This document shows, one piece after another, positions 21,438 through 34,310 of a DNA stretch of 64,000 nt. The stretch is from the NCBI RefSeq assembly GCF_020991365.1, contig NZ_JAJLRA010000001.1, positions 238,142-302,141 of the forward strand, in the 5' to 3' direction. The stretch comes from Streptacidiphilus sp. ASG 303. Its GTDB lineage: Bacteria; Actinomycetota; Actinomycetes; Streptomycetales; Streptomycetaceae. The position numbers were made by a program, and so were the translations under genes. Within the stretch, counting starts at the first letter, position 1. Each line of letters starts with the position of its first letter. The notes beneath the pieces were generated by a model, which searched no databases, had not been told where the DNA came from, and saw nothing but the letters and a program-made list of their open reading frames with translations.

Positions 21438-22573
21438 CCCTGCTGGAGGTGCGCGGCCTCGGTGTCTCCTACCGCAGCGGCGGCCGCGAGGTGCCCGCCG
21501 TGCGCGGCGTGGACCTCACGCTGGACCGCGGCGAGACGCTCGGCCTGGCCGGCGAGTCCGGCTCGGGCAAGTCGACCCTCGCGCTGAGCCTGCTGCGGCT
21601 GCTGCCCGCCGGCACCCGCGTGGAGGGGCAGGTGCGGTGGGAGGGCGAGGACCTGCTCACCGCGAAGTGGAGCCGGGTGCGGGCGGTCCGCTGGGCCGGC
21701 GCGTCGGTCGTCTTCCAGGGCGCGCTCAGCGCGCTCAACCCGGTCCGCACCGTCGGCGACCAGATCTGCGAGCCGATCGTGCTGCACGAGGGGGCGACCC
21801 GGCGCGAGGCCCGCCGCCGGGCCGGGGAGCTCCTGGAGAGCGTCGGCGTGCCCGTGCGGCGGCTCGACGGCTACCCGCACGAGTTCTCCGGCGGCCAGCG
21901 GCAGCGGATCATGATCGCGATGGCGCTGGCCTGCCGCCCCGACCTGATCATCGCGGACGAGCCCACCACGGCCCTGGACGTCATGGTCCAGGCGCAGATC
22001 CTGCAGCTCCTGGCCGACCTGGTGAAGGAGGAGCGGATCGCCGTCCTGATGATCAGCCACGACCTGTCGGTGCTGGCGCAGATGTGCGACCGGCTCGCGG
22101 TGATGTACGCCGGGCAGCTCGTCGAGACCGGGCCGTCGGCGCAGCTGCTCACCGACCCCCGGCACCCCTACACCCGGGCACTGGCCGGGGCGTTCCCCGT
22201 GATCGGGGACCCGGCCTCCCGCCGCGCCCCCTCGGGGCTGCCCGGCGACCCGCCCAACCAGGCGCAGCTGGGCGCGGGCTGCGCCTTCGCGCCGCGGTGC
22301 CCGGAGGCGGACGCGGACTGCCGCACCGGCGCGGTGCAGCTGTGGCCCGCCGGTCCGGGACGGGACGCGGCCTGCCTGCGGGTGCTCCCGGACGGGGTGC
22401 TGCCGGACGGGGCGCTGCGGGACGGCGCCGCGGAACGGCCCGCGGACGGCGCGGACGCGGTGCCGGCCGAGCCCGGCGGCGCGGACGCGACCGGGGAGCG
22501 GGCCGGGGAGCAGGCCGAGGAGCAGGCCGCGCCGCAGCCGGCCGCCGGGACGTCAGCAGGAGGACAGTCATGA
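21434..22573 (+). CDS. Peptide ABC ATPase (DppD/OppD type)
   Basis: 379 residues; the ATG overlaps the upstream stop. Walker A is GESGSGKST, the Q-loop is VFQGALSALNP, the signature is FSGGQRQR, Walker B is DLIIADEPTTALD and the switch His is ISHDL. The C-terminal oligopeptide/dipeptide domain has HPYTRAL and a Cys cluster (CAFAPRCPEADADC) that in this family can bind an Fe-S cluster. The last 70 residues are Ala/Glu/Asp-rich. It energises import together with the next gene. Confidence 0.93.
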   Translation: MTLLEVRGLGVSYRSGGREVPAVRGVDLTLDRGETLGLAGESGSGKSTLALSLLRLLPAGTRVEGQVRWEGEDLLTAKWSRVRAVRWAGASVVFQGALSALNPVRTVGDQICEPIVLHEGATRREARRRAGELLESVGVPVRRLDGYPHEFSGGQRQRIMIAMALACRPDLIIADEPTTALDVMVQAQILQLLADLVKEERIAVLMISHDLSVLAQMCDRLAVMYAGQLVETGPSAQLLTDPRHPYTRALAGAFPVIGDPASRRAPSGLPGDPPNQAQLGAGCAFAPRCPEADADCRTGAVQLWPAGPGRDAACLRVLPDGVLPDGALRDGAAERPADGADAVPAEPGGADATGERAGEQAEEQAAPQPAAGTSAGGQS

Positions 22574-23697
22574 GCGCATCGGCACCCGCATCCGCCGCCG
22601 GGCCGACGGCCTCCGCCGGCCCGGCGGAGGCCGCACCGGCGGCCCTGGAGGTCCGCGGCCTGACGGTCGTGCACCCGCCGCGCGGCGGCCGCGGCCCCGC
22701 CCGGGCCGTGGACGGCGTCGACCTGCGGCTGGAGCAGGGCGAGATCCTGGCCCTGATCGGCGAGTCGGGCTGCGGCAAGAGCACCCTGGCCCGCGCCCTG
22801 GTGGGCCTGACCCGGCCCACCTCCGGCGAGGTGCTGTACCGGGGCACGCCCCTGCGGTACACCGGCTCCGCCCTCAAGGCGTACCGCCGCCACACCCAGC
22901 TGGTCCTCCAGGACCCGGGCGGCGCCCTCAACCCCCGGCAGACCGTGTTCGACGCGGTCGCCGAGGGCCCCCGCCTGCACGGGCTGAAGGAGGGGCTGGA
23001 GGAGCGGGTGCGCTCGGCGCTCTCCCGGGCCGGGCTGCGCCCCCCGGAGGACTTCCTCGCCCGCTACCCGCACCAGCTCTCCGGCGGCCAGCAGCAGCGC
23101 GTGGTGATCGCCGGGGCGCTCGCCCTGGACCCGGCCGTCGTCGTCGCCGACGAGCCGGTGGCCTCCCTCGACGCCTCGGTGCGCGGCGAGATCCTGCAGC
23201 TGGTCCTGCGGCTCCGCGACGAGCTGGGGCTCTCCGCGCTGGTCGTCAGCCACGACCTCGGCCTGGCCTGGAACATCGCCGACCGGGTGGCGGTGATGTA
23301 CCTCGGCCGGATCGTCGAGGTCGGCACCGTCGAGGACGTGCTGCTGCGGCCGGTGCACCCCTACACCAGGGCGCTGCTCTCCGTGCTGCCCGGGCCCGAC
23401 CGCGGCCGGCGGCCCACCGTCCTCACCGGCGAGGCGCCCGACCCGACCGCGGTCCCCGCGGGCTGCCGCTTCCACCCCCGCTGCCCAGCGTGGGCGGCGC
23501 TGGACGGACCGGGCCGGGAGGCCGCGGGGTGCACGGTGCGGGAGCTGCCGGTGCTCACGGCGGACCCGGGCGCCGGGCGGCAGGCCGCCTGCCACCTGGT
23601 GGACGCGGCGGCGGACACGCCGGCGGGCGGGGCGGGGACGGCCGGCGCGCCGGGGGGCGCGGCGCAGGCACCCGGGGCGGAGGACGGCCGTGGCTGA
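22570..23697 (+). CDS. Peptide ABC ATPase (DppF/OppF type)
   Basis: 375 residues; the ATG overlaps the upstream stop. Walker A is GESGCGKST, the Q-loop is VLQDPGGALNP, the signature is LSGGQQQR, Walker B is VVVADEPVASLD and the switch His is VSHDL. HPYTRAL and a Cys-containing CRFHPRCPAW segment mark the oligopeptide ATPase C-terminus. A disordered Gly/Ala tail follows. The LD-carboxypeptidase gene begins 8 bases before its stop, so the peptidase is translationally linked to the transporter. Confidence 0.93.
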   Translation: MSASAPASAAGPTASAGPAEAAPAALEVRGLTVVHPPRGGRGPARAVDGVDLRLEQGEILALIGESGCGKSTLARALVGLTRPTSGEVLYRGTPLRYTGSALKAYRRHTQLVLQDPGGALNPRQTVFDAVAEGPRLHGLKEGLEERVRSALSRAGLRPPEDFLARYPHQLSGGQQQRVVIAGALALDPAVVVADEPVASLDASVRGEILQLVLRLRDELGLSALVVSHDLGLAWNIADRVAVMYLGRIVEVGTVEDVLLRPVHPYTRALLSVLPGPDRGRRPTVLTGEAPDPTAVPAGCRFHPRCPAWAALDGPGREAAGCTVRELPVLTADPGAGRQAACHLVDAAADTPAGGAGTAGAPGGAAQAPGAEDGRG

Positions 23698-24607
23698 GTC
23701 CCTGCTGCGGCCCCCGGCGCTGCGCCCCGGCGACCGCGTCGCCGTCGCCGCCGCCAGCGGGCCGCCCGACCAGGCCGCCCTCGACCGGGGGCTGGCCGCG
23801 CTGCGCGGCCTGGGCCTGGAGCCCGACGTCCTGCCCTCCGCCCGGGCGGGCGGCGCGTACCTCGCGGGCTCCGACGCGCTGCGGGCCGCCGACCTCACCC
23901 GGGCGCTGACCGACCCGTCCTACCGGGCCGTCCTGCTCGCCTGCGGCGGGTACGGCGCCCAGCGCACCCTGGAGCTGGTCGACTGGGAGCGCGTCGGCGC
24001 CCCGGCGCCGCGCGCGGTCGTCGGGTACTCCGACGTCACCGCGCTGCTGGAGGCCGTCGCGGTGAGACTCGGCTGGGCGTCGCTGTTCGCGCCCATGCCC
24101 GCCTGCGACGGCTTCCACCCGGACAGCCCGGCCTTCGGGCACCTGGCGCGGCTGCTCACCGACCCGGCCTCGGTGCGGGAGCTGGCCTTCCCCGGTGCCC
24201 GGGCCCTGGTGCCCGGCACGGCGGAGGGCGTCACCGCGGGCGGCACCGCCACCCTGCTGGCCTCCTCGCTCGGGTCGGCGACCTCCCGGCCCGCGCGGGG
24301 CGCGGTCCTCCTGCTGGAGGACGTGGACGAGGAGGTCTACCGGCTGGACCGCATCCTCACCCAGCTGCGCCGCTCGGGGTACCTCGACGGCGTGGCCGGG
24401 ATCGTCTGCGGGACCTTCACCCGCTGCGGCGCCCCGGAGGAGGTGGAGGAGCTGCTCCGCGACCGCCTCGGGGACCTCGGGGTGCCCGTCCTGGCCGGGG
24501 CCGACGTCGGCCACGGGGTGCCCATGCGGACCTTCCCGATCGGGGTGCGGGCCCGCCTGGACGCGGACCGGGGCACCGTGCGGCTGCTCGACCCGTCGCT
24601 CACCTGA
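23690..24607 (+). CDS. LD-carboxypeptidase (S66, LdcA-like)
   Basis: 305 residues from the GTG at 23690, overlapping the ATPase gene by 8 bases. The catalytic triad of S66 is intact: Ser114 in GYSD, Glu210 in LLLED and His275 in VGHG, with the family's CGGYG turn upstream. The family removes the terminal D-alanine from the L,D-bond of murein tetrapeptide, or cleaves related peptide antibiotics (MccF). No signal peptide, so it works in the cytosol on imported stem peptides. The placement directly after a peptide importer supports recycling or scavenging. A strong terminator follows at 24614-24662. Confidence 0.93.
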   Translation: MAESLLRPPALRPGDRVAVAAASGPPDQAALDRGLAALRGLGLEPDVLPSARAGGAYLAGSDALRAADLTRALTDPSYRAVLLACGGYGAQRTLELVDWERVGAPAPRAVVGYSDVTALLEAVAVRLGWASLFAPMPACDGFHPDSPAFGHLARLLTDPASVRELAFPGARALVPGTAEGVTAGGTATLLASSLGSATSRPARGAVLLLEDVDEEVYRLDRILTQLRRSGYLDGVAGIVCGTFTRCGAPEEVEELLRDRLGDLGVPVLAGADVGHGVPMRTFPIGVRARLDADRGTVRLLDPSLT

Positions 24608-24662: not shown

Positions 24663-24724
24663 ACCGGGGCCCGCGTGCCGTGGACGGGGCTCCGGGCCGC
24701 CGGTAGGGTGCGGTGGGGGCAGAT

Positions 24725-27700
24725 ATGTCCGACAACGTCCGCATCAGCCTGTTCGGCGGCTTCCGGGTGGTGGTCGGGGACCGCCCCGTCGCCGCCGGGG
24801 AGTGGCGGCTGCGCAAGGCCAGGACCCTGCTGAAGCTGCTGGCCCTGGCCCCGGGCCACCGGCTGCACCGGGACCGGGTCTACGACCTGCTGTGGCCCGA
24901 CCTGGACCCCGCGGCCGCCGCGAACAACCTGCACCAGGTGCTCCACGCCGCCCGGCGCGCCCTGACCGCGGCCGGGGCCCCCGGGGACGTGGTCGTCCTG
25001 CGCGACGACACGGTCGTCCTCGGCCCGGAGGGCGGCGTCCGGGTCGACCTCGACGACCTGGAGGAGGCGGCCCGGCGCGCGTCCGCGGGCGGCGGGTCGG
25101 CGGAGTACCGCGCCGCGCTCGACCTGGCCGGGGGCGAGCTGCTCCCCGAGGACGCCTACGAGCCGTGGACGCAGGAGGCGCGCGACGCCGCGGACGTGCG
25201 GCGCACCCGGCTGCGGGCGGGCCTCGCCGGGGCGCTGGAGCGGGAGGGCCGCCCCGCCGAGGCGGTCGAGGTGCTGGAGGCCCTGGCCGCCGAGGACGGG
25301 TTCGACGAGCCGGTCCGCCGGGCCCTGATGCGGACCCTCGCGGCCGCGGGGCGGCGGCGCGAGGCGCTGGCCGTGTACGAGCGGCTGCGCGACGCGCTCC
25401 GCAGCGGCACCGGGTCCGACCCGGACCCGCAGACCCGGCGGCTGTACCGCACCCTGCTGGCGGGCTCGGTCGAGGACGGGGACGGGGACGGGGACGGGGA
25501 CGGGAACGCGATCGGGGACGGGAACCGAAACGGGGACGGGAGCGAGGACGGGGGGCCCGGGCCCGGCCCCGCGCCCCGGCACAACCTGCCCGCGCAGACG
25601 ACCAGCTTCGTCGGCCGGGAGCGCGAGACTGCCGAGGTGGAGGAGCTGCTGGCCCGGAGCCGGCTGGTGACCCTCACCGGGCCGGGCGGCTGCGGCAAGA
25701 CCCGGCTGGCCCTGGCCGTCGCGGCCCGCCGCACCGGCGCCGTCCGCGACGGCGTGTGGTTCGTCGACCTCGCCGCGTTCACGGAGCCCGGGCTCGTCCC
25801 GGACGCGGTCGCCGAGGTGCTCGGCGTCCGCCTGCCGCGGTCCGGCGGGACGGCGGCGGCGCTGGCCGCCCGGCTGGCCGGACGGGAGCTGCTGCTCGTG
25901 CTCGACAACTGCGAGCACCTGGTCGACGCGTGCGCCGCCCTCGTCGCGGAGGTCCTGGCCCGCTGCCCGGGGGTCACCGTGCTCGCGACCGGCCGGGAGC
26001 CGCTGCGGGCCTACGGCGAGCGCACCTGGCGGGTGCCCTCGCTCGGACTGCCGGACCCGCGCCGGCTGCCGGCCCCGGCCGCGCTCGGCCGCTTCGCGTC
26101 GGTGCGGCTGTTCACGGAGCGGGCGGCGGAGGTGGCGCCCGGCTTCCGGCTCGGCCCCGGCAACGCGGCGGCCGTGGCGCAGATCTGCTTCCGGCTGGAC
26201 GGGATGCCCCTGGCCCTGGAGCTGGCGGCCGCGCAGGTGCGCGTCCTGGAGCCGCGGCAGGTCGCCGACCGGCTCGACGACGCGCTCACCCTCCTCGGGC
26301 AGGGCGGCAGGCGTGCGGTGACGCGGCAGCGGACCCTGCTGGCGACCCTGGAGTGGAGCCACCGGCTGCTCGACCCCGGGGAGCGGCGGCTGCTGCGGCG
26401 GCTGGCGGTCTTCGCCGGGAGCTTCTCCCTGGCCGGCGTCGAGGAGGTGTGCGGCGAGGACGGCGACCCGGACGGCGTGCTGGGCGCCCTCGGCCGCCTT
26501 GTCGACAAGTCGCTCGTCCTCGTGGAGCGCCACGGCGGCGAGGCGCGCTACCGACTGCTGGAGACGATCCGCCAGTACGCGCGGGAGCGGCTGCGCGAGG
26601 CCGGGGAGCAGGCGGGGACCGAACGGCGGCACCGCCGCTTCTACCTGGCGCTCGCCGAGGCCTACGAGCCCGAGCCGCAGCCCGGGGCCGGGTCGGAACG
26701 CGGGCAGGGGCACGGGCAGGGGCAGGGGGCCGGGGTCCCCGGCGGCACGCCGGTGCAGCTGGAGGCCGACCACGACAACCTGCGCGCCGCGCTCGGCTCG
26801 GCCCTCGGGAGCGACCCGGAGACGGCGCTGCGGCTGGCGGTCGCCCTGCGGCTGTTCTGGACCGAGCGCGGCTACTTCGCCGAGGGCCGGCACCGGCTGG
26901 AGTCGGCGCTCGCCGCCGCCCCGGAGCCGACCCCGCTGCGGGCGCGGGCCCTCGCCGCCCTGGCCGTGCTCGCGATCCGGCTCGGCGACTGCTCCCGGCC
27001 GGTGTCGGCCGCCGCGGAGGCGGTGGCGGTCCACCGGGCGGGCCGGGACCGGGCCGCGCTGGCCTACGCCCTCCACCGGCAGTCGGTCCTGCTGTGGATG
27101 TGCGGCGCCTGGGACGCGGCGGACCGGGCGCTCGACGAGGCGTGCGCGCTCGCCCGCGGCGCTCCCACCGCCCGCGTGCCCGCCGTCCTGGCGGCCGCCG
27201 CGTACCAGCGGGGGATCCGCGCCGCCTCCCTCGGCGACGGCGCGGCCGCCCGGGCCGCGTTCGCCGGGAGCCTGGACCTGCTGGCGGACCTCGACGGCGC
27301 CACCGGGCCGTTCCTCCCCGTCATGACGCCCGGCTACGTCGTGGAGGAAGGCGCCGGGGGCCGCGTGTCGGTGTACTTCGAGGAGACCGTGCTGGCGGGG
27401 CGGCTGGTGGGCGCGGCGCAGGCCCGCGGGTACGCGCTGGCCAACCTGGCGTGGGCCGCCCGGCTCGACGGCGACACGGACGGGGCCGCCGCGGCGGCGG
27501 AGCGGAGCGCCGCGTGCTTCCGGGACCTCGGGGACCCCCGCGGGGAGTCGCTGGCCCTCAACGCCCTCGGCAACATCTGCCGTGCCCGCGGGGACCGCGC
27601 CGCCGCGCGGCGGCACCTGGAGGCGAGCCTGGCGGTCAGGCGGCGCCTCGGCGACCGCCGCGAGGTCGGGATCACCCTCGGCTGCCTCGGCCTGCTGGCG

Positions 27701-28099
27701 CTGTCCGCCGGCGACCTCGACGGCGCGCGGGCGGCGGTCGGCCGGGCGCTCGCCGGGTTCGAGGAGGCCGACGACGTCCCGGGCCGGACCAACAGCCTGC
27801 TCCACCTCGGGCTCGTCGCCCGGGCGGCGGGCGACACCGCCGCTGCGCGGGCCCTGCTCGTCCGCGCCCAGGAGCTGGAGCACGTCGCCGGGTCGCGGTG
27901 CGCCGCCGGGTGGGTGGCGGTCGTGCTGGCGCGGCTCGCGGAGGAGGCGGGCGACCGCGTCGGCGCCGACGCGGCCACCGCCCGGGCCAGGGCGCTCTTC
28001 ACCGGGCCCGGCGACGCGCGCGGCCTCGCCCACCTGCGCCGGACCGGCCCGGCGGCGGCCGCACCGGCGGGCCGAGGGGCGGGGGCGGCGCCGGCGTGA
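24725..28099 (+). CDS. Large SARP/AfsR-type regulator: DNA-binding, BTAD, NB-ARC ATPase and TPR
   Basis: 1124 residues from the ATG at 24725; a GTG at 24713 is an alternative. A TAGGGT hexamer at 24704-24709 is a likely -10. The N-terminal winged-helix domain (ISLFGGFRVVVGDR, LRKARTLLKLLAL) and bacterial transcriptional activation domain (LWPDLDPAAAANNLHQVLHAARR) occupy about residues 4-240. A Gly/Asp linker from a 6-bp repeat (25477-25550) leads to an NB-ARC-like ATPase with Walker A GPGGCGKTR (about 318) and LLLVLDNCEHL as Walker B. TPR-type helices fill the last 400 residues. Proteins of this design activate nearby genes via heptamer direct repeats; such repeats sit just upstream of the next gene. 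Confidence 0.9.
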   Translation: MSDNVRISLFGGFRVVVGDRPVAAGEWRLRKARTLLKLLALAPGHRLHRDRVYDLLWPDLDPAAAANNLHQVLHAARRALTAAGAPGDVVVLRDDTVVLGPEGGVRVDLDDLEEAARRASAGGGSAEYRAALDLAGGELLPEDAYEPWTQEARDAADVRRTRLRAGLAGALEREGRPAEAVEVLEALAAEDGFDEPVRRALMRTLAAAGRRREALAVYERLRDALRSGTGSDPDPQTRRLYRTLLAGSVEDGDGDGDGDGNAIGDGNRNGDGSEDGGPGPGPAPRHNLPAQTTSFVGRERETAEVEELLARSRLVTLTGPGGCGKTRLALAVAARRTGAVRDGVWFVDLAAFTEPGLVPDAVAEVLGVRLPRSGGTAAALAARLAGRELLLVLDNCEHLVDACAALVAEVLARCPGVTVLATGREPLRAYGERTWRVPSLGLPDPRRLPAPAALGRFASVRLFTERAAEVAPGFRLGPGNAAAVAQICFRLDGMPLALELAAAQVRVLEPRQVADRLDDALTLLGQGGRRAVTRQRTLLATLEWSHRLLDPGERRLLRRLAVFAGSFSLAGVEEVCGEDGDPDGVLGALGRLVDKSLVLVERHGGEARYRLLETIRQYARERLREAGEQAGTERRHRRFYLALAEAYEPEPQPGAGSERGQGHGQGQGAGVPGGTPVQLEADHDNLRAALGSALGSDPETALRLAVALRLFWTERGYFAEGRHRLESALAAAPEPTPLRARALAALAVLAIRLGDCSRPVSAAAEAVAVHRAGRDRAALAYALHRQSVLLWMCGAWDAADRALDEACALARGAPTARVPAVLAAAAYQRGIRAASLGDGAAARAAFAGSLDLLADLDGATGPFLPVMTPGYVVEEGAGGRVSVYFEETVLAGRLVGAAQARGYALANLAWAARLDGDTDGAAAAAERSAACFRDLGDPRGESLALNALGNICRARGDRAAARRHLEASLAVRRRLGDRREVGITLGCLGLLALSAGDLDGARAAVGRALAGFEEADDVPGRTNSLLHLGLVARAAGDTAAARALLVRAQELEHVAGSRCAAGWVAVVLARLAEEAGDRVGADAATARARALFTGPGDARGLAHLRRTGPAAAAPAGRGAGAAPA
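25474..25550 (+). repeat. In-frame GACGGG-type repeat in the SARP linker
   Basis: Hexamer repeats encode a Gly-Asp/Asn linker between the BTAD and ATPase domains. Confidence 0.8.
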
Positions 28100-28158
28100 G
28101 CACGACCGGCGGGAACGGGCCCGGCGCGAACGGGCCCGGCGGGAATGCACAGCGGGGG

Positions 28159-28203
28159 TGCACAGCGGCTGCTAAGCCGGTGCTAAGCGCCCCGCCGTAG
28201 CGT
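28159..28203 (+). promoter_or_regulatory. SARP-type operator and promoter of the FAD oxidoreductase
   Basis: Three heptamers, TGCACAG (28159-28165), TGCTAAG (28170-28176) and TGCTAAG (28181-28187), start exactly 11 bp apart. A TAGCGT -10 hexamer lies at 28198-28203, 10 bases after the last one. SARP proteins are known to bind such repeats at 11-bp pitch close to the -10 in place of a -35. The SARP-like gene ends just upstream. Confidence 0.7.
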
Positions 28204-28242
28204 CCCAGGCGTCGGAACGAGATTCCACCCAGGGAGGCCGAC

Positions 28243-29655
28243 ATGTCGATCGACACGGAGCGGGGTGTCCTCGGGGACGCCACCATCGGCGAGCTGGAGG
28301 CGGCGCTGCGCGGCACGGTGGTGCGGCCCGGCGACGCCTCGTACGACGAGGCCCGGACGGTCTGGAACGGCGCCCACGACCGGCGGCCGGCCCTGGTGGT
28401 GCGGTGCGCCGGGACGGCGGACGTGGTGCGGGCGGTCGAGTTCGCGCGCAGCCAGGACCTGCTGGTCGCGGTGCGGGGCGGCGGGCACAGCATCGCCGGG
28501 TTCTCGACCTGCGACGGCGGCGTCGTCGTCGACCTGTCCGGGATGAAGGGGATGCGGGTCGACCCGGCGCGGCGCCGGGCGTTCGCCCAGCCGGGGCTGA
28601 CCTGGGCGGAGTTCGACAACGAGACGCAGGCGTTCGGCCTGGCCGTGACCGGGGGCCTGGTCTCGTCGACCGGAATCGCCGGCTTCACGCTCGGCGGCGG
28701 GGTGGGCTGGCTGGTCCGCCGGTACGGCCTGACCTGCGACAACCTGGTCGGGGCCGACGTCGTCACCGCGGACGGCCGCCTGGTGCACGCGGACGCGGAG
28801 GAGAACGCCGACCTGTTCTGGGCGCTGCGGGGCGGCGGCGGCAACTTCGGCGTCGTCACGTCGTTCGAGTACGCGCTGCACCCGGTGGGGCCCCAGGTGA
28901 TGGCGGGCCTGGTCTTCTACCCCCTCGACGAGGCGCGGCAGGTCGTCACCCGGTGGCGGGACCTGACGGCCGGGGCGCCGGACGAGCTGACGACCATGGT
29001 CGTGATGACCACGGCGCCGCCGGTGCCGTTCCTGCCCGAGGAGGTGCACGGCACCCGGGTGGTGGCCGTCGGCTGCATGTACGCGGGCGCCCTCGCGGAC
29101 GCCGAGGAGGCGGTCCGCCCGCTGCGGACGCTGGGCACGCCGATCACCGACCTCGTCGGCCCCCTGCCCTACACCGCCATGCAGACGCTGCTGGACCCGC
29201 TGTGGACGCCCGGGGCGCACAACTACTTCACCTCGACGTTCGTCGAGCCGTCCGACGCCGCGCTGGACGCGGTGCTGCGGCTGCACCGCACCACGCCGAC
29301 GCCCTCCAGCGAGCTGCACCTGCACCAGCTCGGCGGCGCCTGCGGCCGCGTCCCCGCGGACGCGACCCCCTTCAGCCGGCGCGACGCGCAGGTCCTGTGC
29401 AACGTGATCGCCCGCGCCCCCGGGCCGGAGGGCTTCGACGGGCACGTGGCGTGGGCGCGCGCGGCCCGGGATGAGGTCGCCCGGCACGGCGGGGGAGGCA
29501 TGTACGTCAACTTCACCGGCGACGCGGCGGAGGACAAGGTGCGCGCGTCCTACCCGGAGGCCGTGTACGACCGGCTGGTGCGGGTCAAGGACGCGTACGA
29601 CCCCACCAACCTCTTCCGGCTCAACCAGAACATCCGCCCGTCCGCCGCGGCCTGA
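28243..29655 (+). CDS. BBE-type FAD-linked oxidoreductase
   Basis: 470 residues, with GGGAGG before the ATG. The PCMH FAD-binding domain carries VAVRGGGHSIAG, whose His is the covalent FAD attachment site in this family, and GGGVGWLVRRYGLTCDN. The second Cys anchor of bicovalent members is not evident. The C-terminus has the BBE motif NYxxPxNLFxxNQNI-like (DAYDPTNLFRLNQNI). These enzymes oxidise sugars, alcohols or alkaloid- and polyketide-like substrates using O2. The SARP-type operator directly upstream suggests activation by the preceding regulator; no other biosynthetic genes are adjacent, so the substrate is open. Confidence 0.9.
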   Translation: MSIDTERGVLGDATIGELEAALRGTVVRPGDASYDEARTVWNGAHDRRPALVVRCAGTADVVRAVEFARSQDLLVAVRGGGHSIAGFSTCDGGVVVDLSGMKGMRVDPARRRAFAQPGLTWAEFDNETQAFGLAVTGGLVSSTGIAGFTLGGGVGWLVRRYGLTCDNLVGADVVTADGRLVHADAEENADLFWALRGGGGNFGVVTSFEYALHPVGPQVMAGLVFYPLDEARQVVTRWRDLTAGAPDELTTMVVMTTAPPVPFLPEEVHGTRVVAVGCMYAGALADAEEAVRPLRTLGTPITDLVGPLPYTAMQTLLDPLWTPGAHNYFTSTFVEPSDAALDAVLRLHRTTPTPSSELHLHQLGGACGRVPADATPFSRRDAQVLCNVIARAPGPEGFDGHVAWARAARDEVARHGGGGMYVNFTGDAAEDKVRASYPEAVYDRLVRVKDAYDPTNLFRLNQNIRPSAAA

Positions 29656-29704: not shown

Positions 29705-29751
29705 GCTGCGCCCGCCCGGGCGGGCGGCGCGCCGTGTGGTAGGGAGGGACG

Positions 29752-30435
29752 GTGCCCCCTCTCCTCCCCCGCCTCCCCCCGGACGGAGGGGCCGCCGCGC
29801 TGCGGTCGGCCCTCTCCCGCAACGGCGTGCTGCTGGAGGTGCTGGACCGCGCGGCGGGACTGGACCTCCCCGGCTGGTACCTGACGGGGGGATGCGTCGT
29901 CCAGACGGTGTGGAACGCCGTCACGGGCAGGCCGCCCGCCCACGGCATCAAGGACTACGACCTCTTCTTCTTCGACGACCGCGACCTCTCGTGGGAGGCG
30001 GAGGACGCGGTGGTCAGGGCGGCCGGGGACGCCTTCGGCGGCCTGACCGCCGAGGTGGAGGTCCGCAACGAGGCCCGGGTCCACCTCTGGTACGAGGAGA
30101 GGTTCGGCGTCCCGTGCGCCCCGCACGGCTCCACGGAGGCGGCCATCGACAGCTTCGCCGCGACCACCTGCTGCGTGGGAGTGCGGCTGGAGACCGGCGG
30201 CCGGTGGCGGGTCTACGCGCCGCACGGGCTCTCCGACGTCTTCGGCCTCGTCGTGCGGCCGAACCCGGTGCTCGCCCCGCGCGAGGTGTACGAGGCGAAG
30301 ACGGAGCGCTGGCGGCGGCAGTGGCCGGAGCTGACCGTGCTGGACTGGCCGTCGGACCCGGGCGGGCGGCAGCCGCCGCGCGGCGGGCCCCGCCGCGGCG
30401 GCGGACCGGAACGGGCGGGGCGGCCCGCTAGGTGA
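29752..30435 (+). CDS. Nucleotidyltransferase-fold protein (NTP_transf_6-like)
   Basis: 227 residues from the GTG at 29752. TAGGGA at 29740-29745 ends 6 bases earlier and no ribosome site is present, so a leaderless mRNA is likely. WYLTGGCVVQTVWNAVTGRPP followed by IKDYDLFFFD (about residues 42-78) matches the DUF925/NTP_transf_6 family, in which the GG and D-x-D residues form a polymerase-beta-like nucleotidyltransferase site. The C-terminal 25 residues are Arg/Gly-rich. The function of the family is unknown. There is no neighbouring HEPN-type gene, so it is not an evident toxin-antitoxin pair. Confidence 0.75.
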   Translation: MPPLLPRLPPDGGAAALRSALSRNGVLLEVLDRAAGLDLPGWYLTGGCVVQTVWNAVTGRPPAHGIKDYDLFFFDDRDLSWEAEDAVVRAAGDAFGGLTAEVEVRNEARVHLWYEERFGVPCAPHGSTEAAIDSFAATTCCVGVRLETGGRWRVYAPHGLSDVFGLVVRPNPVLAPREVYEAKTERWRRQWPELTVLDWPSDPGGRQPPRGGPRRGGGPERAGRPAR

Positions 30436-30446
30436 CGGTGCGTCAC
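30432..30446 (+). terminator. Small hairpin spanning the stop of the nucleotidyltransferase gene
   Basis: GTGACG and CGTCAC arms with a GTG loop. The stop codon lies in the left arm. G/C-rich imperfect hairpins follow to about 30520. Termination is plausible but not strong. Confidence 0.35.
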
Positions 30447-30634
30447 GGCCGGCCGCCGCGCGCCGCCGCGCGCCGGCGGGCCCGCCGGCCGGGCGCGGGG
30501 CCCGCGGGGGCCGGCCGGCGGTGGGGGCGGACGGCCGGCGGGGGCGGCGGGGAGCCGGGCCGGGGAACCGGATGTTCACCCCGATGATCCGTCACCGTCC
30601 CCGCGAACACGGTCCGCAGGCCGCGACGAGGCCC

Positions 30635-30640
30635 TACTGT
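30635..30640 (+). promoter_or_regulatory. Candidate -10 of the NAGPA/phosphoesterase gene
   Basis: TACTGT ends 7 bases before the ATG at 30648 and no Shine-Dalgarno is present, implying a leaderless transcript. No clear -35 was found. Confidence 0.4.
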
Positions 30641-30647
30641 CCCACCC

Positions 30648-33600
30648 ATGCGACGTACACGTACCTTTGCCGTGCGGCCGCCGGGCGTCCTGCCCGGCGG
30701 CCGTCCTCCGCTGCCCGCCGCGGGACTGCGCGTGCCCGCAGCCCTGCTCGCCGCCCTCGCCGTGGTCGGGGCGGCCGCCGCACCGACCGGGCCGCAGCGC
30801 GGCGGCGGGGCGGCCGTGCGGACGGTCGCCGCGGTCGCGGACGGACCGGTGCGGGCCGCCCGCCCCGGCAGCGCGGACGGGGAGGGCGGCCCCGTCCCGG
30901 CGGGCCCGCGCGTCCCGGTGCCGCCGGACGACGGGGCCGGGGTGGGGGCGGGGACCCGGACCGCACCGGCGGCGCGCGGACGGGCCGCGGAGGCGGCGGC
31001 CGGGTCCGCGGACTCGCTGGACGTCTCCTCGTCCACCCGGACGATCGCCCCCGGGGTGACGCTGACCCGCGAGCGGACCGTCGACCCGGCGGGGTTCCTC
31101 GACGGGTACGTGCTCCGCGCCGACCTGGACGGACCCACCCGGCCGCGGCTGCTCGCCCCCACCGTGAGCGGCACCTCCGCACCGACCGCCCTCGCCGACG
31201 GCGCGGGCGCGGCCGCCGCCGTGAACGGCGACTTCTTCGCCATCGACACCACGAACGCCCCGATCGGCCCCGAGGTGCGGGACGGCGCGCTGCTGAAGGC
31301 GGGCGCCGCACCGGCCCCGGTCGCCGGCGTCGGACAGGACGGCGTGGGCCGCATCGCCGACCTGCTGCTGGAGGGCGCAGCGACCGTCGGCGGGGTGCGC
31401 CACGACCTGGCGGGGCTCAACCCCGGCTCGGTGCCGGCCGACGCCCTCGCCCTGTACACCCCGGACTGGGGCCCCGGCGACCGGCGGTTCGCCGTCCCGG
31501 CGGGCGCGGACGCCGTCGAGCTGGAGGTCCGGGACGGCAGGGTCGCCGCCGTGCACGAGGGGGCCGGGCGCACACCGGTACCGGACGGCGCGCAGGTGCT
31601 CCTCGCCACCGGGAGCACCGCGGACGCCCTGGCGCGGACCGCCCCCGGCACCCCGGCGGCGGTGGAGTACCACGCCCGGACCTCGGCGCCCTCGCCGTTC
31701 TCGCTGGCCCTGGGGGCCCACCTGGTCCTGGTGCGCGGCGGCGCCGTCGCCCCCGTCGACACCTCCGACGCGGGCAACAGCGCCCTCAAGCCCCGGACCG
31801 CGATGGGCTGGACGGCGGACCGGCGGCTCGTGCTGTACGTCGCCGACGGCTCCTCCAGCCGCTCCCGCGGCCTCACCGCCCTCCAGCTCGCCGAACGCAT
31901 GAGGGCGCTCGGGGCGGTGGACGCGGTGATGCTCGACGGCGGCGGCTCCTCGCAGCTCGTGGCCCGCCGCCCCGGCGGCACCGGCGCCGAGGTGGTGAAC
32001 GCCCCCTCGGACGGCGCGCAGCGGGTCGTGCCCAACGCGGTGGGCCTGGTCCCGCCGGCCGGCTCCGGGCGGCTGCACGGCATCGACGTGCGGCTGCGCT
32101 CGGACCGGCTCTTCCCCGGCCTGTCGCGGGACGTCGCCGCGTCCGGCTACGACGAGGCGCTGGGCGCGGCACCGCTGGGCGCGGCCCGGTGGCGGACCGT
32201 GCCCGGCGGCCTGGCCCGGTCCGACGGGGCGGCCGTGCTGCGCGGCGCCCGGCCGGGCAGCGGGACGCTGGAGGCGCGCAGCGGGGCGGTGTCCGCGCAC
32301 GTGCCGCTGCGGGTGCTCGGCCCGCTGGACCGGCTGGAGGCCGACGTCCCGGCCCTGTCGCTGGAGCCGGGCGACTTCCGGGACGTCACGGTGACCGGCC
32401 GGGACGCCGAGGGCTTCGCCGCCCCCGTCGAACCCCGCGACGTGCACCTGGAGTACGACCCCGCCGTCGCCTCGGTGGCGGCCCGGCCCGACGGCACGCT
32501 GCGCGTCACCGGCCTGCCGGGCGGCGACGGCCGGGGCACGGTGGTCACCGCGACGGTGCAGGGCCGCGTGCTGCGCCTGCCGGTGACCGTGGGCCTCGCC
32601 GACACGCCGCTCGACCCCCTCGCCGACGCCTCCGCGTGGTCGGCCGCGGGCGCGAAGGCGACGGCGTCGGTGTCCTCCGTGGCGACCGGCGACCGGCCCG
32701 GGGCCGCGCCCGGGGAGCGCGGACTGCGCCTGGCCTACGACATGACCGGCCAGCCGACCGGCACCTCGGCCGCGTACGCGGTGGCCCGGCAGCCGCTCGC
32801 GGTGCCCGCAGGCGCCCAGCGGCTCGCGCTGTGGGTCCGCGGCGACGGCTCGGGGCACTGGCTGCGGGCGCAGCTGCGCTCGCAGGGCACGACGAACGTC
32901 CCCTTCACCTTCTCCCTGGCCGTGGACTGGACCGGCTGGCGCCGCGTCGAGGGGCCGGTCCCGACCGGTTTCACCGCGCCGCTGACGCTGGAGCGGCTCT
33001 ACCTGGTGCAGACCGACCCCACCCGGCGGACCGCCGGGGCGGTCGACCTCGCCCTGCTCGACGCCCGGGTGGGTGTGCGCCTCGACCTGCCGGACCGGCC
33101 GGACCAGCCGGACCCGGCCGTCGTCGAGGACGCCGACGGCCTCCCCGCGCCGGGGCGGTGGGCGTGGCGGTTCGCCGTCCTGTCCGACACGCACGTCAAC
33201 GCCGACGGCGGCACCGGCTCCTACGCCTACCGGCACACGGCGCGGGCGCTGGACGAGATCGCCGCGGCCCGCCCGGACCTCGTGCTGCTGTCCGGGGACG
33301 GCGTCGACCAGGACCGGCCGGCCGACTTCGCCCTGTTCCAGCGGCTTCTGACGGAACACCTGCCGGCCGGCGTCCCCCTGTACTGGGCGGTGGGCAACCA
33401 CGAGTCGGGCGCGGTGGCTGGCGGCACCCTGGAGCAGTTCACCGCCTCCACCGGGCGGCCGACCCGGCAGTCCTTCGACCACGCGGGCACCCGGTTCGTG
33501 CTGCTCGACTCGACCCTGGGGTCGCTGCGCCTGTCGGACTGGTCCCAGCTGGGATGGCTGCGGGAGCGGCTGGCGGACGCCGCCTCCGACCCGGCCGTGG

Positions 33601-34310
33601 ACAGCGTGGTCGTCGCCGTCCACCACCCCGTGCTCGACCCCACCGGGACCGGCGCCAGCCAGCTGTCCGACCCCTCCGAGGGCGCGCTGCTGGAGCAGTG
33701 GCTGGCGGACTTCCGGCGGCGCACCGGCAAGCAGGTCGCGCTGGTGACCGGGCACGCGCACACCGCGCACGTGCGGCGGGCCGACGGCCTGCTGGAGTTC
33801 AACGCCCCGGTGGTCGGCAAGACCCCGTACGGGGACGCGGGCCACGGCGGCTTCGCCGCCTGGTCGCTGGTGACCCTGGACCCGGAGGCCGCCCGCGTCA
33901 CCCCCGACCGGCCGGACCCGCGCGGCGCCGGGTGGTTCCGGGCGGAGGTGCGTCCGCTGCTGGACCGCATCGGCCTGGCAGTCCCCCCGCAGCTCTCCCC
34001 GGGGGACTCCGGGCAGGTCTCCGCCACCGCCGTCGACGACGGCATGGGCGGCCGGACCGTCCCGCTGCGCTACCCGGCGACCGCCGCCTGGTCCGGCGCG
34101 CACCTGGCCGTCGTCGCCGACGACCGGGCGCTGGCCGCCGCGCTGCGGCGCCCCGGCGTGGTCGCCGTCCTGGACCGGCGCACCCTGCGCCTCACCGCCG
34201 TCCGCCCCGGCGGCACCGACGTGACGGTGCGCTCCGGAAGCCTCACCGCGTCCGCCCGCGTGGAGGTGGGGGCCGGCCCCGCCGCCGCGCGGCGGGCGTC
34301 CTCCGGCTGA
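30648..34310 (+). CDS. Secreted phosphodiester glycosidase (NAGPA) / metallophosphoesterase fusion
   Basis: 1220 residues. A signal peptide-like N-terminus (LRVPAALLAALAVVGAAAA) is followed by a low-complexity stretch. The NAGPA (phosphodiester glycosidase) domain spans about residues 130-470, with AAVNGDFF (about 190) and VMLDGGGSSQL (about 425-435). A middle region (about 480-830) looks like Ig-like and carbohydrate-binding-type beta domains. A calcineurin-like phosphoesterase follows, with SDTH (about 846), a GD motif (LLSGDGVD), GNHES (about 917), a late HHP (about 991) and GHAHTAH (about 1034), which supply the bimetal ligands. A C-terminal beta domain ends the protein. It probably removes phosphodiester-linked sugars or teichoic-type phosphates outside the cell; the substrate is inferred. 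Confidence 0.85.
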   Translation: MRRTRTFAVRPPGVLPGGRPPLPAAGLRVPAALLAALAVVGAAAAPTGPQRGGGAAVRTVAAVADGPVRAARPGSADGEGGPVPAGPRVPVPPDDGAGVGAGTRTAPAARGRAAEAAAGSADSLDVSSSTRTIAPGVTLTRERTVDPAGFLDGYVLRADLDGPTRPRLLAPTVSGTSAPTALADGAGAAAAVNGDFFAIDTTNAPIGPEVRDGALLKAGAAPAPVAGVGQDGVGRIADLLLEGAATVGGVRHDLAGLNPGSVPADALALYTPDWGPGDRRFAVPAGADAVELEVRDGRVAAVHEGAGRTPVPDGAQVLLATGSTADALARTAPGTPAAVEYHARTSAPSPFSLALGAHLVLVRGGAVAPVDTSDAGNSALKPRTAMGWTADRRLVLYVADGSSSRSRGLTALQLAERMRALGAVDAVMLDGGGSSQLVARRPGGTGAEVVNAPSDGAQRVVPNAVGLVPPAGSGRLHGIDVRLRSDRLFPGLSRDVAASGYDEALGAAPLGAARWRTVPGGLARSDGAAVLRGARPGSGTLEARSGAVSAHVPLRVLGPLDRLEADVPALSLEPGDFRDVTVTGRDAEGFAAPVEPRDVHLEYDPAVASVAARPDGTLRVTGLPGGDGRGTVVTATVQGRVLRLPVTVGLADTPLDPLADASAWSAAGAKATASVSSVATGDRPGAAPGERGLRLAYDMTGQPTGTSAAYAVARQPLAVPAGAQRLALWVRGDGSGHWLRAQLRSQGTTNVPFTFSLAVDWTGWRRVEGPVPTGFTAPLTLERLYLVQTDPTRRTAGAVDLALLDARVGVRLDLPDRPDQPDPAVVEDADGLPAPGRWAWRFAVLSDTHVNADGGTGSYAYRHTARALDEIAAARPDLVLLSGDGVDQDRPADFALFQRLLTEHLPAGVPLYWAVGNHESGAVAGGTLEQFTASTGRPTRQSFDHAGTRFVLLDSTLGSLRLSDWSQLGWLRERLADAASDPAVDSVVVAVHHPVLDPTGTGASQLSDPSEGALLEQWLADFRRRTGKQVALVTGHAHTAHVRRADGLLEFNAPVVGKTPYGDAGHGGFAAWSLVTLDPEAARVTPDRPDPRGAGWFRAEVRPLLDRIGLAVPPQLSPGDSGQVSATAVDDGMGGRTVPLRYPATAAWSGAHLAVVADDRALAAALRRPGVVAVLDRRTLRLTAVRPGGTDVTVRSGSLTASARVEVGAGPAAARRASSG

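Follow-up and report, generated by a model that had tools for sequence, protein, structure and literature searches.

SARPs have become known chiefly for switching antibiotic clusters. In the section of a 2024 review cited here, most medium and large SARPs are described as not well investigated (PMC10972967). One of the closest described systems is AfsR/afsS, in which, according to the relevant sections of the source, a SARP joined to STAND/NOD and TPR parts is associated with 11-bp direct repeats over the -35 region (PMC10936776). In the same sections, the downstream AfsR repeat falls at -29 to -19 (a position taken from the 22-bp box and the upstream repeat at -40 to -30), residues T88 and R92 are given as contacting bases, and the distance from the last SARP repeat to the -10 element is stated as 8 bp (PMC10936776), a value that depends on the unit end chosen. 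Another related system is PimR; in the part of its description cited here, the primary operator consists of three heptamers with 4-bp spacers, of which CGGCAAG resembles the TGCTAAG considered below, and pimM is described as the unique target gene (PMC5930380). EmbR of mycobacteria (PDB 2ff4, 2fez) is similar in its ODB-BTAD fold. As for the enzyme, the closest described protein is the flavin-N5-oxide oxygenase EncM (PDB 3w8w, 4xlo, 6fy8 series), for which mutation of residues around the dioxygen pocket is reported, in the section cited, to alter dioxygen use (PMC7662398).

The locus analyzed here belongs to the window, i.e., the whole 64-kb stretch of Streptacidiphilus sp. ASG 303 DNA under study. 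A large regulator gene ending at 28099 is followed on the same strand (+) by an oxidase gene starting at 28243, and three heptamers with a putative -10 element are located between them. The features are as follows.

24704..24709, + strand: TAGGGT, putative -10 element of the regulator gene; no heptamer pair nearby
24725..28099, + strand: large SARP-type regulator, 1124 aa (winged-helix DNA-binding domain, BTAD, STAND ATPase, TPR)
24923..24964, + strand: recognition-helix stretch NNLHQVLHAARRAL, residues 67-80 (AfsR residues mapped by alignment)
25679..25702, + strand: Walker A motif GPGGCGKT, residues 319-326 (from the translated sequence)
28146..28152, + strand: extra TGCACAG, 13 bp upstream of repeat 1 and off the 11-bp pitch
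28159..28165, + strand: TGCACAG, putative operator repeat 1, the least conserved one (sequence reading and alignment)
28170..28176, + strand: TGCTAAG, putative operator repeat 2 (sequence reading and alignment)
28181..28187, + strand: TGCTAAG, putative operator repeat 3, 10 nt before the -10 element
28198..28203, + strand: TAGCGT, putative -10 element of the oxidase promoter; T, A and T at the first, second and last positions constant in 12/12 loci
28243..29655, + strand: FAD_binding_4/BBE flavin oxidase, 470 aa, EncM-like (Pfam, PDB match, residue alignment)

The regulator, the promoter and the oxidase in the window

The original prediction had assigned to the adjacent gene a 1124-residue product with SARP-type DNA-binding and BTAD domains. 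This length is right if translation begins at ATG 24725, which is the start aligned with the orthologues; from this codon, the gene contains no TTA. Both domains were recovered. According to the Pfam analysis, the protein contains BTAD (1.5e-17), TPR_12 (above the cut-off) and AAA_22 (just above it). The AlphaFold model of the SARP domain has a pLDDT of 95, and its comparison with the PDB gave only six matches at E ≤ 0.001, all of them AfsR and EmbR chains (TMq 0.75 and 0.80, respectively). The BTAD match, the model and the fold thus agree on an N-terminal OmpR-type winged helix followed by BTAD, as in SARPs. In addition, the STAND/NOD ATPase (Walker A at 319-326, GMPLALELAA at 493-502) and the TPR part are those of large SARPs of the AfsR type, whereas EmbR carries an FHA domain in the place of STAND-TPR, as the cited part of PMC10936776 indicates. 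Orthology with AfsR was not found with the NCBIfam equivalog NF053617 (64.6 bits versus a cut-off of 1430).

Re-reading of the DNA confirmed all positions of the predicted architecture, namely, three heptamers starting at 28159, 28170 and 28181 (a pitch of 11 and 11 bp) and then the TAGCGT -10. Direct repeats at 11- or 22-bp pitch are typical of SARP operators, the promoter being the predicted target. The spacing between the last repeat and the -10 element is short and constant, 10 nt counted from the heptamer end, in 12/12 loci compared below; it would be the same in AfsR if the afsS -10 is placed at -12 to -7, following the promoter description cited (PMC10936776). No sigma-70-type -35/-10 pair was found in 27900-28500, which agrees with the SARP habit of placing the operator over a poor -35 region. 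No terminator was found in this interval either, and read-through from the regulator gene is therefore possible. A separate observation concerns positions 28146-28169, where a 13-bp tandem duplication creates a fourth TGCACAG. This copy, at 28146, is probably a local duplication outside the repeat array, and it is not evident in the aligned orthologues.

Several differences from the described systems should be pointed out. In the sections cited, AfsR has the box CGTT(T/C)ATCG, two repeats versus three here, and T88/R92 (PMC10936776), which by alignment correspond to Q71 and A75 of the window regulator; AfsR is a global regulator, whereas the predicted target here is one oxidase. PimR is a SARP-LAL of a polyene cluster that activates a regulator gene from an operator not placed over the -35 box, as described in the part cited (PMC5930380). 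In the open-access literature searched at the title and abstract level, neither a TGCTAAG SARP site nor the pairing of a SARP with one BBE-type oxidase appeared among the matches listed.

The best PDB match of the oxidase is EncM (E ~1e-124), followed by 6-hydroxy-D-nicotine oxidase and mitomycin radical oxidase. By residue alignment, the His78 of EncM that binds the covalent flavin is present as His82, and Thr139 corresponds to Thr143, while His138 and Leu144 are replaced by Ser142 and Phe148; among the three residues of the dioxygen pocket (Thr139, His138, Leu144), only Thr is retained. The Thr139 equivalent is not specific to EncM, since all 25 rows shown have this Thr. In the 12 Streptomycetaceae rows, the His138 position is always Ser or Thr and the Leu144 position always Phe, the latter being found in 0/13 of the other rows shown. 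Because mutations in the pocket alter the use of dioxygen by EncM, the chemistry of this enzyme should not be assumed for the oxidase.

EncM also belongs to a type II polyketide cluster, and no polyketide genes were found among the 12 neighbors with Pfam matches (~16.0-40.2 kb). These neighbors show no sign of a biosynthetic-cluster type, in agreement with what had been stated about the absence of a cluster, as far as the ASG 303 genome is concerned. They include an M20 peptidase, peptide transport (three genes), LD-carboxypeptidase, nucleotidyltransferase and phosphodiester glycosidase/phosphoesterase, together with genes of the MarR, glyoxalase, alcohol dehydrogenase, aromatic acid exporter and Na/Ca exchanger types. 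One of the neighbors, at 30648-34310, encodes a 1220-aa protein that combines NAGPA phosphodiester glycosidase and calcineurin-like phosphoesterase domains. The open frames 22168-23898 (-), 29736-30431 (+) and 30443-32083 (-) matched no family and probably do not represent genes.

Orthologous loci and motif searches

A search with the oxidase protein yielded 80 loci that were kept, including 11 from Streptomycetaceae (L002-L012) with an oxidase identity of 75-81%. In 11/11 of the latter, the gene immediately before the oxidase is an orthologue of the regulator, with 60-77% identity in each aligned segment (the match in L004 is split over two frames, and L012 contains runs of unread bases). No match at E ≤ 1e-10 was found for any of 11 flanking window genes in the L002-L012 stretches, which extend ~2.5 kb ahead of the regulator and 6 kb past the oxidase.

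With the window included, repeats 2 and 3 at 11-bp pitch, the 10-nt gap and a TA(C/G)(G/C)(G/C)T element are kept in 12/12 loci, and C stands directly after the -10 element in all of them. Information content in this alignment is high in the repeats and the -10 and low in the columns further upstream. Repeat 3 reads TGCT(A/G/C)AG, repeat 2 is mostly TGCTGAG, and repeat 1 is mostly CAAAG-like in the orthologues and missing from its place in L009. The proposed architecture of a SARP-activated promoter is thus supported by its conservation in orthologous pairs at SARP-typical spacing. The claim that the heptamer defines the target site held with a correction: the predicted site is conserved, but its consensus is rather about nGCTnAG, with a weaker, CAAAG-like repeat 1. 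An idea that Gln71 of the regulator reads the adenine at repeat position 5 was dropped, since this position is often G in repeat 2.

As for the regulator gene, CGGTAGCCTGCTC lies ahead of the start codon in 8/11 orthologues, with a variant in L010 and absence in L002 and L012. Neither the window nor L002-L012 showed a heptamer pair at 11-bp pitch upstream of the regulator, and autoregulation via the same operator was rejected because the regulator promoter lacks such a pair.

In 9/11 orthologues, the 3' end of the regulator gene takes in repeat 1 and the greater part or all of repeat 2; the stop codon of the gene is inside repeat 2 in L002 (TAA) and in L003, L004, L006, L008 and L011 (TGA). 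Due to this overlap, the conservation of repeats 1 and 2 could be partly coding. It might even be supposed that a constitutive promoter and a conserved regulator 3' end are simply adjoined and that the repeats are by-products, all the more as the -10 element is among the most constant parts. Such an origin of the repeats is judged very improbable: the promoter has no -35 element, all three repeats persist beyond the regulator stop in the window and in L012 (in 12/12 loci, this holds for repeat 3 and the -10), and pitch 11 with a -10 at a fixed gap is typical of paired and not of unpaired loci in the test described below.

The heptamer TGCTAAG occurs twice in the window, both times in the putative operator. 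The pattern TGCTAAGN4TGCTAAG with ≤3 mismatches gave two matches in the window versus 0.20 (sd 0.43) expected. A genome search for heptamer repeats at 11-bp pitch, suggested together with the original prediction, was run and returned one exact TGCTAAG pair in the 6.99-Mb genome, in front of the oxidase. Among 394 family genomes, the exact two-heptamer pattern was found in one (Streptacidiphilus sp. ASG 303) and its reversed control in three. The bare pair was therefore dropped as stand-alone evidence, the control being no rarer family-wide, and the significance of the predicted operator is derived from the full motif and the conservation seen among orthologues.

The full motif, TGCTnAG-N4-TGCTAAG-nG-N8-TAnnGT with ≤3 mismatches, was searched in 12 genomes. 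It matched the oxidase promoter in 12/12; there were three other matches, each with exactly three mismatches, and one control match. One of the three (L094, in the ASG 303 genome) runs into the start of a phosphofructokinase-like gene, and the other two (L095 and L096, in two genomes) belong to a near-palindrome before a gene reading like a MaoC-type protein. With the relaxed motif, the ASG 303 genome gave the operator site and one further match with one mismatch (L130), with no control match. In 388 family genomes at ≤1 mismatch, seven genomes matched and none with the control; five of them contain regulator-oxidase pairs, including one new pair (L097), and two contain promoters of TetR-like genes. 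By these searches, there is only one convincing candidate site per genome in 12/12 genomes.

In L095 and L096, the sequence CTAAGCAGTTGCTTAG at ~position 1501, before the MaoC-like gene, is probably a TetR-type operator. In L101 and L102, CTAAGC-N4-GCTCAG at ~position 1501 lies over the promoter of the TetR-like gene and mimics the SARP motif.

Since GCTnAGC is itself nearly palindromic, the site in front of the oxidase could be regarded as the palindromic operator of another regulator, e.g., a TetR repressor; the window offers an inverted match of 5/6 (CTAAGC-N4-GCTAAG), and near-palindromes of a similar kind occur elsewhere, as in the four loci just named. However, repeats 2 and 3 stay direct (5-7/7) in the 12 loci, in which the best inverted 6-mer reaches 4 or 5/6, the direct pitch is retained with CGTTGAG-type repeats in the diverged loci L128 and L129 (see below), and the constant neighbor of the site is a SARP. 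The TetR-type palindrome was rejected on the conservation of direct repeats and is hardly credible as an explanation. A SARP operator remains the preferred reading of the site.

A protein search of 388 family genomes at E ≤ 1e-170 found the oxidase in nine genomes, seven at 75-100% and two at 59% identity. Those that the first oxidase search had not yielded, L123 (80%), L125 (from the same genome as L097), L128 and L129 (both 59%), all have the upstream regulator and a predicted operator, which reads TGCAAAG/CGCTAAC/TGCAAAG-N10-TAACGT in L123 and CGTTGAG/TGTTGAG/CGTTGGG-N10-TAGGGT in L128 and L129. In the two diverged pairs, the geometry of the putative operator is kept and the heptamers are changed. 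Their regulators show 39% identity over the 445 residues compared, all in the C-terminal half and away from the DNA-binding domains. Downstream of the oxidase, L129 contains a second regulator-like match (L129:3201-4250) with 31% identity to residues 2-360 of the window regulator.

It should also be considered that another SARP, e.g., AfsR, uses the operator, or that the adjacent regulator has many off-consensus targets. A streptomycete may possess many large SARPs, as indicated in the section cited of PMC10972967, and weak sites escape motif searches. However, the AfsR box is different (CGTT(T/C)ATCG, according to the same source, PMC10972967), the predicted operator co-occurs with the adjacent regulator in the Streptomycetaceae pairs found, and each genome has one convincing site; this alternative appears unlikely, with a better standing than the palindrome or the constitutive promoter. 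Control of the next gene by the adjacent regulator is preferred.

Pairs beyond Streptomycetaceae and the spacing of repeats

A same-strand BTAD regulator lies upstream of and adjoins the oxidase in 19/80 loci (11 Streptomycetaceae, four Cupriavidus, three Acidobacteriota and one Pseudonocardiales). The open frame is cut short in L035 and L054, as if broken. The BTAD regulator is divergent in L051 and L062 and is located elsewhere in the locus in L023, L026, L059 and L080; in L062, repeats at 12 and 11 bp were seen by eye and not counted. Upstream of the oxidase, Acidobacteriota have (C/T)AGAACG-N4-TAGAACG-N10-CAAAGT, and three of the four Cupriavidus loci have CCTAACG-N4-CGAAACG-N10-TAAAAC, the fourth (L054) having TGAAACG. 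A pattern common to both groups found the oxidase promoter in 7/7 genomes, with one further match and two control matches.

At the two helix positions aligned with T88 and R92 of AfsR, the regulators of Cupriavidus contain Q and Q, and those of Acidobacteriota contain Q and H or N (read by eye). The recognition-helix residues and the putative operators both differ between the groups, which may serve as a lead for specificity.

A quick tree was constructed for 79 oxidases (L039 and L055, being partial matches, were left out). The Streptomycetaceae pairs formed a clade of their own, and those of Cupriavidus and Acidobacteriota grouped together in another. In L025 and L046, which belong to the branch with the latter oxidases, no BTAD regulator was found within the stretch examined. 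The pairing requires four changes on the tree, at least two of them forced by well-supported branches, versus 17.9 on average with shuffled labels; the pattern fits repeated recruitment as well as loss. In a search of 150 Burkholderiales genomes with the Cupriavidus regulator, six genomes matched at 10 places, with no oxidase in the stretch examined at any of them except L111, which is the Cupriavidus pair itself; the other nine places added no pairs.

The pitch of the repeats was analyzed in two ways. Without reference to the -10 element (best 8-mer identity per pitch), 11 was the strict best among pitches of 8-23 in 5/20 same-strand pairs. With a -10 element 10 nt downstream, a test framed after the operators had been seen and after the test without the -10, 11 was the strict best among pitches of 8-16 in 20/24 paired versus 3/44 unpaired loci. 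By group, this was the case in 14/14 and 2/2 for Streptomycetaceae, 2/4 for Cupriavidus, 1/3 for Acidobacteriota and 1/1 for Pseudonocardiales. The mean statistic was 7.79 versus 4.80 in single-base shuffles (sd 0.22, largest value 5.40), and when gaps of 5-15 were scanned, the mean of the paired loci was highest at 10. Of the 59 loci that have no BTAD regulator either directly upstream or divergent, 44 made up the unpaired set; L033 was left out, as were 14 loci whose match starts at a position other than 6001 of the locus. L023, L026 and L080 were counted as unpaired although they contain a BTAD regulator elsewhere in the locus, and the divergent L051 and L062 were left out of the test. Since the 10-nt gap was taken from Streptomycetaceae loci, the Cupriavidus, Acidobacteriota and Pseudonocardiales loci provide the fairer test, with stretches that include some coding bases because they end at the start of the tblastn match. 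Support for pitch 11 outside Streptomycetaceae is moderate, and it is weaker for Cupriavidus and Acidobacteriota.

Proposed switch and its significance

Judging from sequence comparison, the three heptamers are very probably the operator of the adjacent large SARP, with the next gene, the oxidase, as its target. The best reading of the locus is a dedicated switch of one regulator and one enzyme, with activation of the AfsR type, outside a biosynthetic cluster. The regulator would be made at a steady low level from its own promoter, which has no heptamers. By analogy with AfsR, the STAND-TPR part may restrain the SARP domain until a signal and ATP release it. As in the AfsR structure, each 11-bp repeat would then be occupied by one SARP protomer, next to its neighbor, on a promoter lacking a -35 element, and the bound protomers would bring sigma region 4 and RNA polymerase to the -10 at 28198. 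The outcome would be the expression of one EncM-like flavin oxidase, which probably oxidizes the signal small molecule or a relative of it.

Control of a single oxidoreductase by such a large regulator had been called unusual. One convincing motif site per genome speaks for single-gene control, but the layout recurs in other genomes, and PimR provides a precedent for a unique target. Every SARP feature tested was found, as far as alignments and models can tell; what appears unusual is the predicted single target outside a cluster and the recurring pairing. In Streptomycetaceae, the motif-level comparison shows the regulator, the putative operator and the oxidase as one portable cassette with a predicted regulon of one gene. 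It is further proposed, tentatively and with slightly less than even confidence, that one EncM-like oxidase is switched on by a STAND-TPR SARP in response to a small molecule, through an operator of 11-bp repeats, and that cassettes of this kind exist in at least two separate oxidase lineages, across Streptomycetaceae, Cupriavidus and Acidobacteriota.

The cassette provides one predicted site with a single predicted target, and it has natural relatives with other heptamers; the recognition-helix residues also differ between Streptomycetaceae, Cupriavidus and Acidobacteriota. The specificity of a STAND-TPR SARP and its sensing of a signal could be addressed on one promoter. For the orphan EncM-like oxidase, the inducer may reveal the substrate. 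If the cassette reading is true, SARP-type promoter activation would not be confined to Actinomycetota or to antibiotic clusters.
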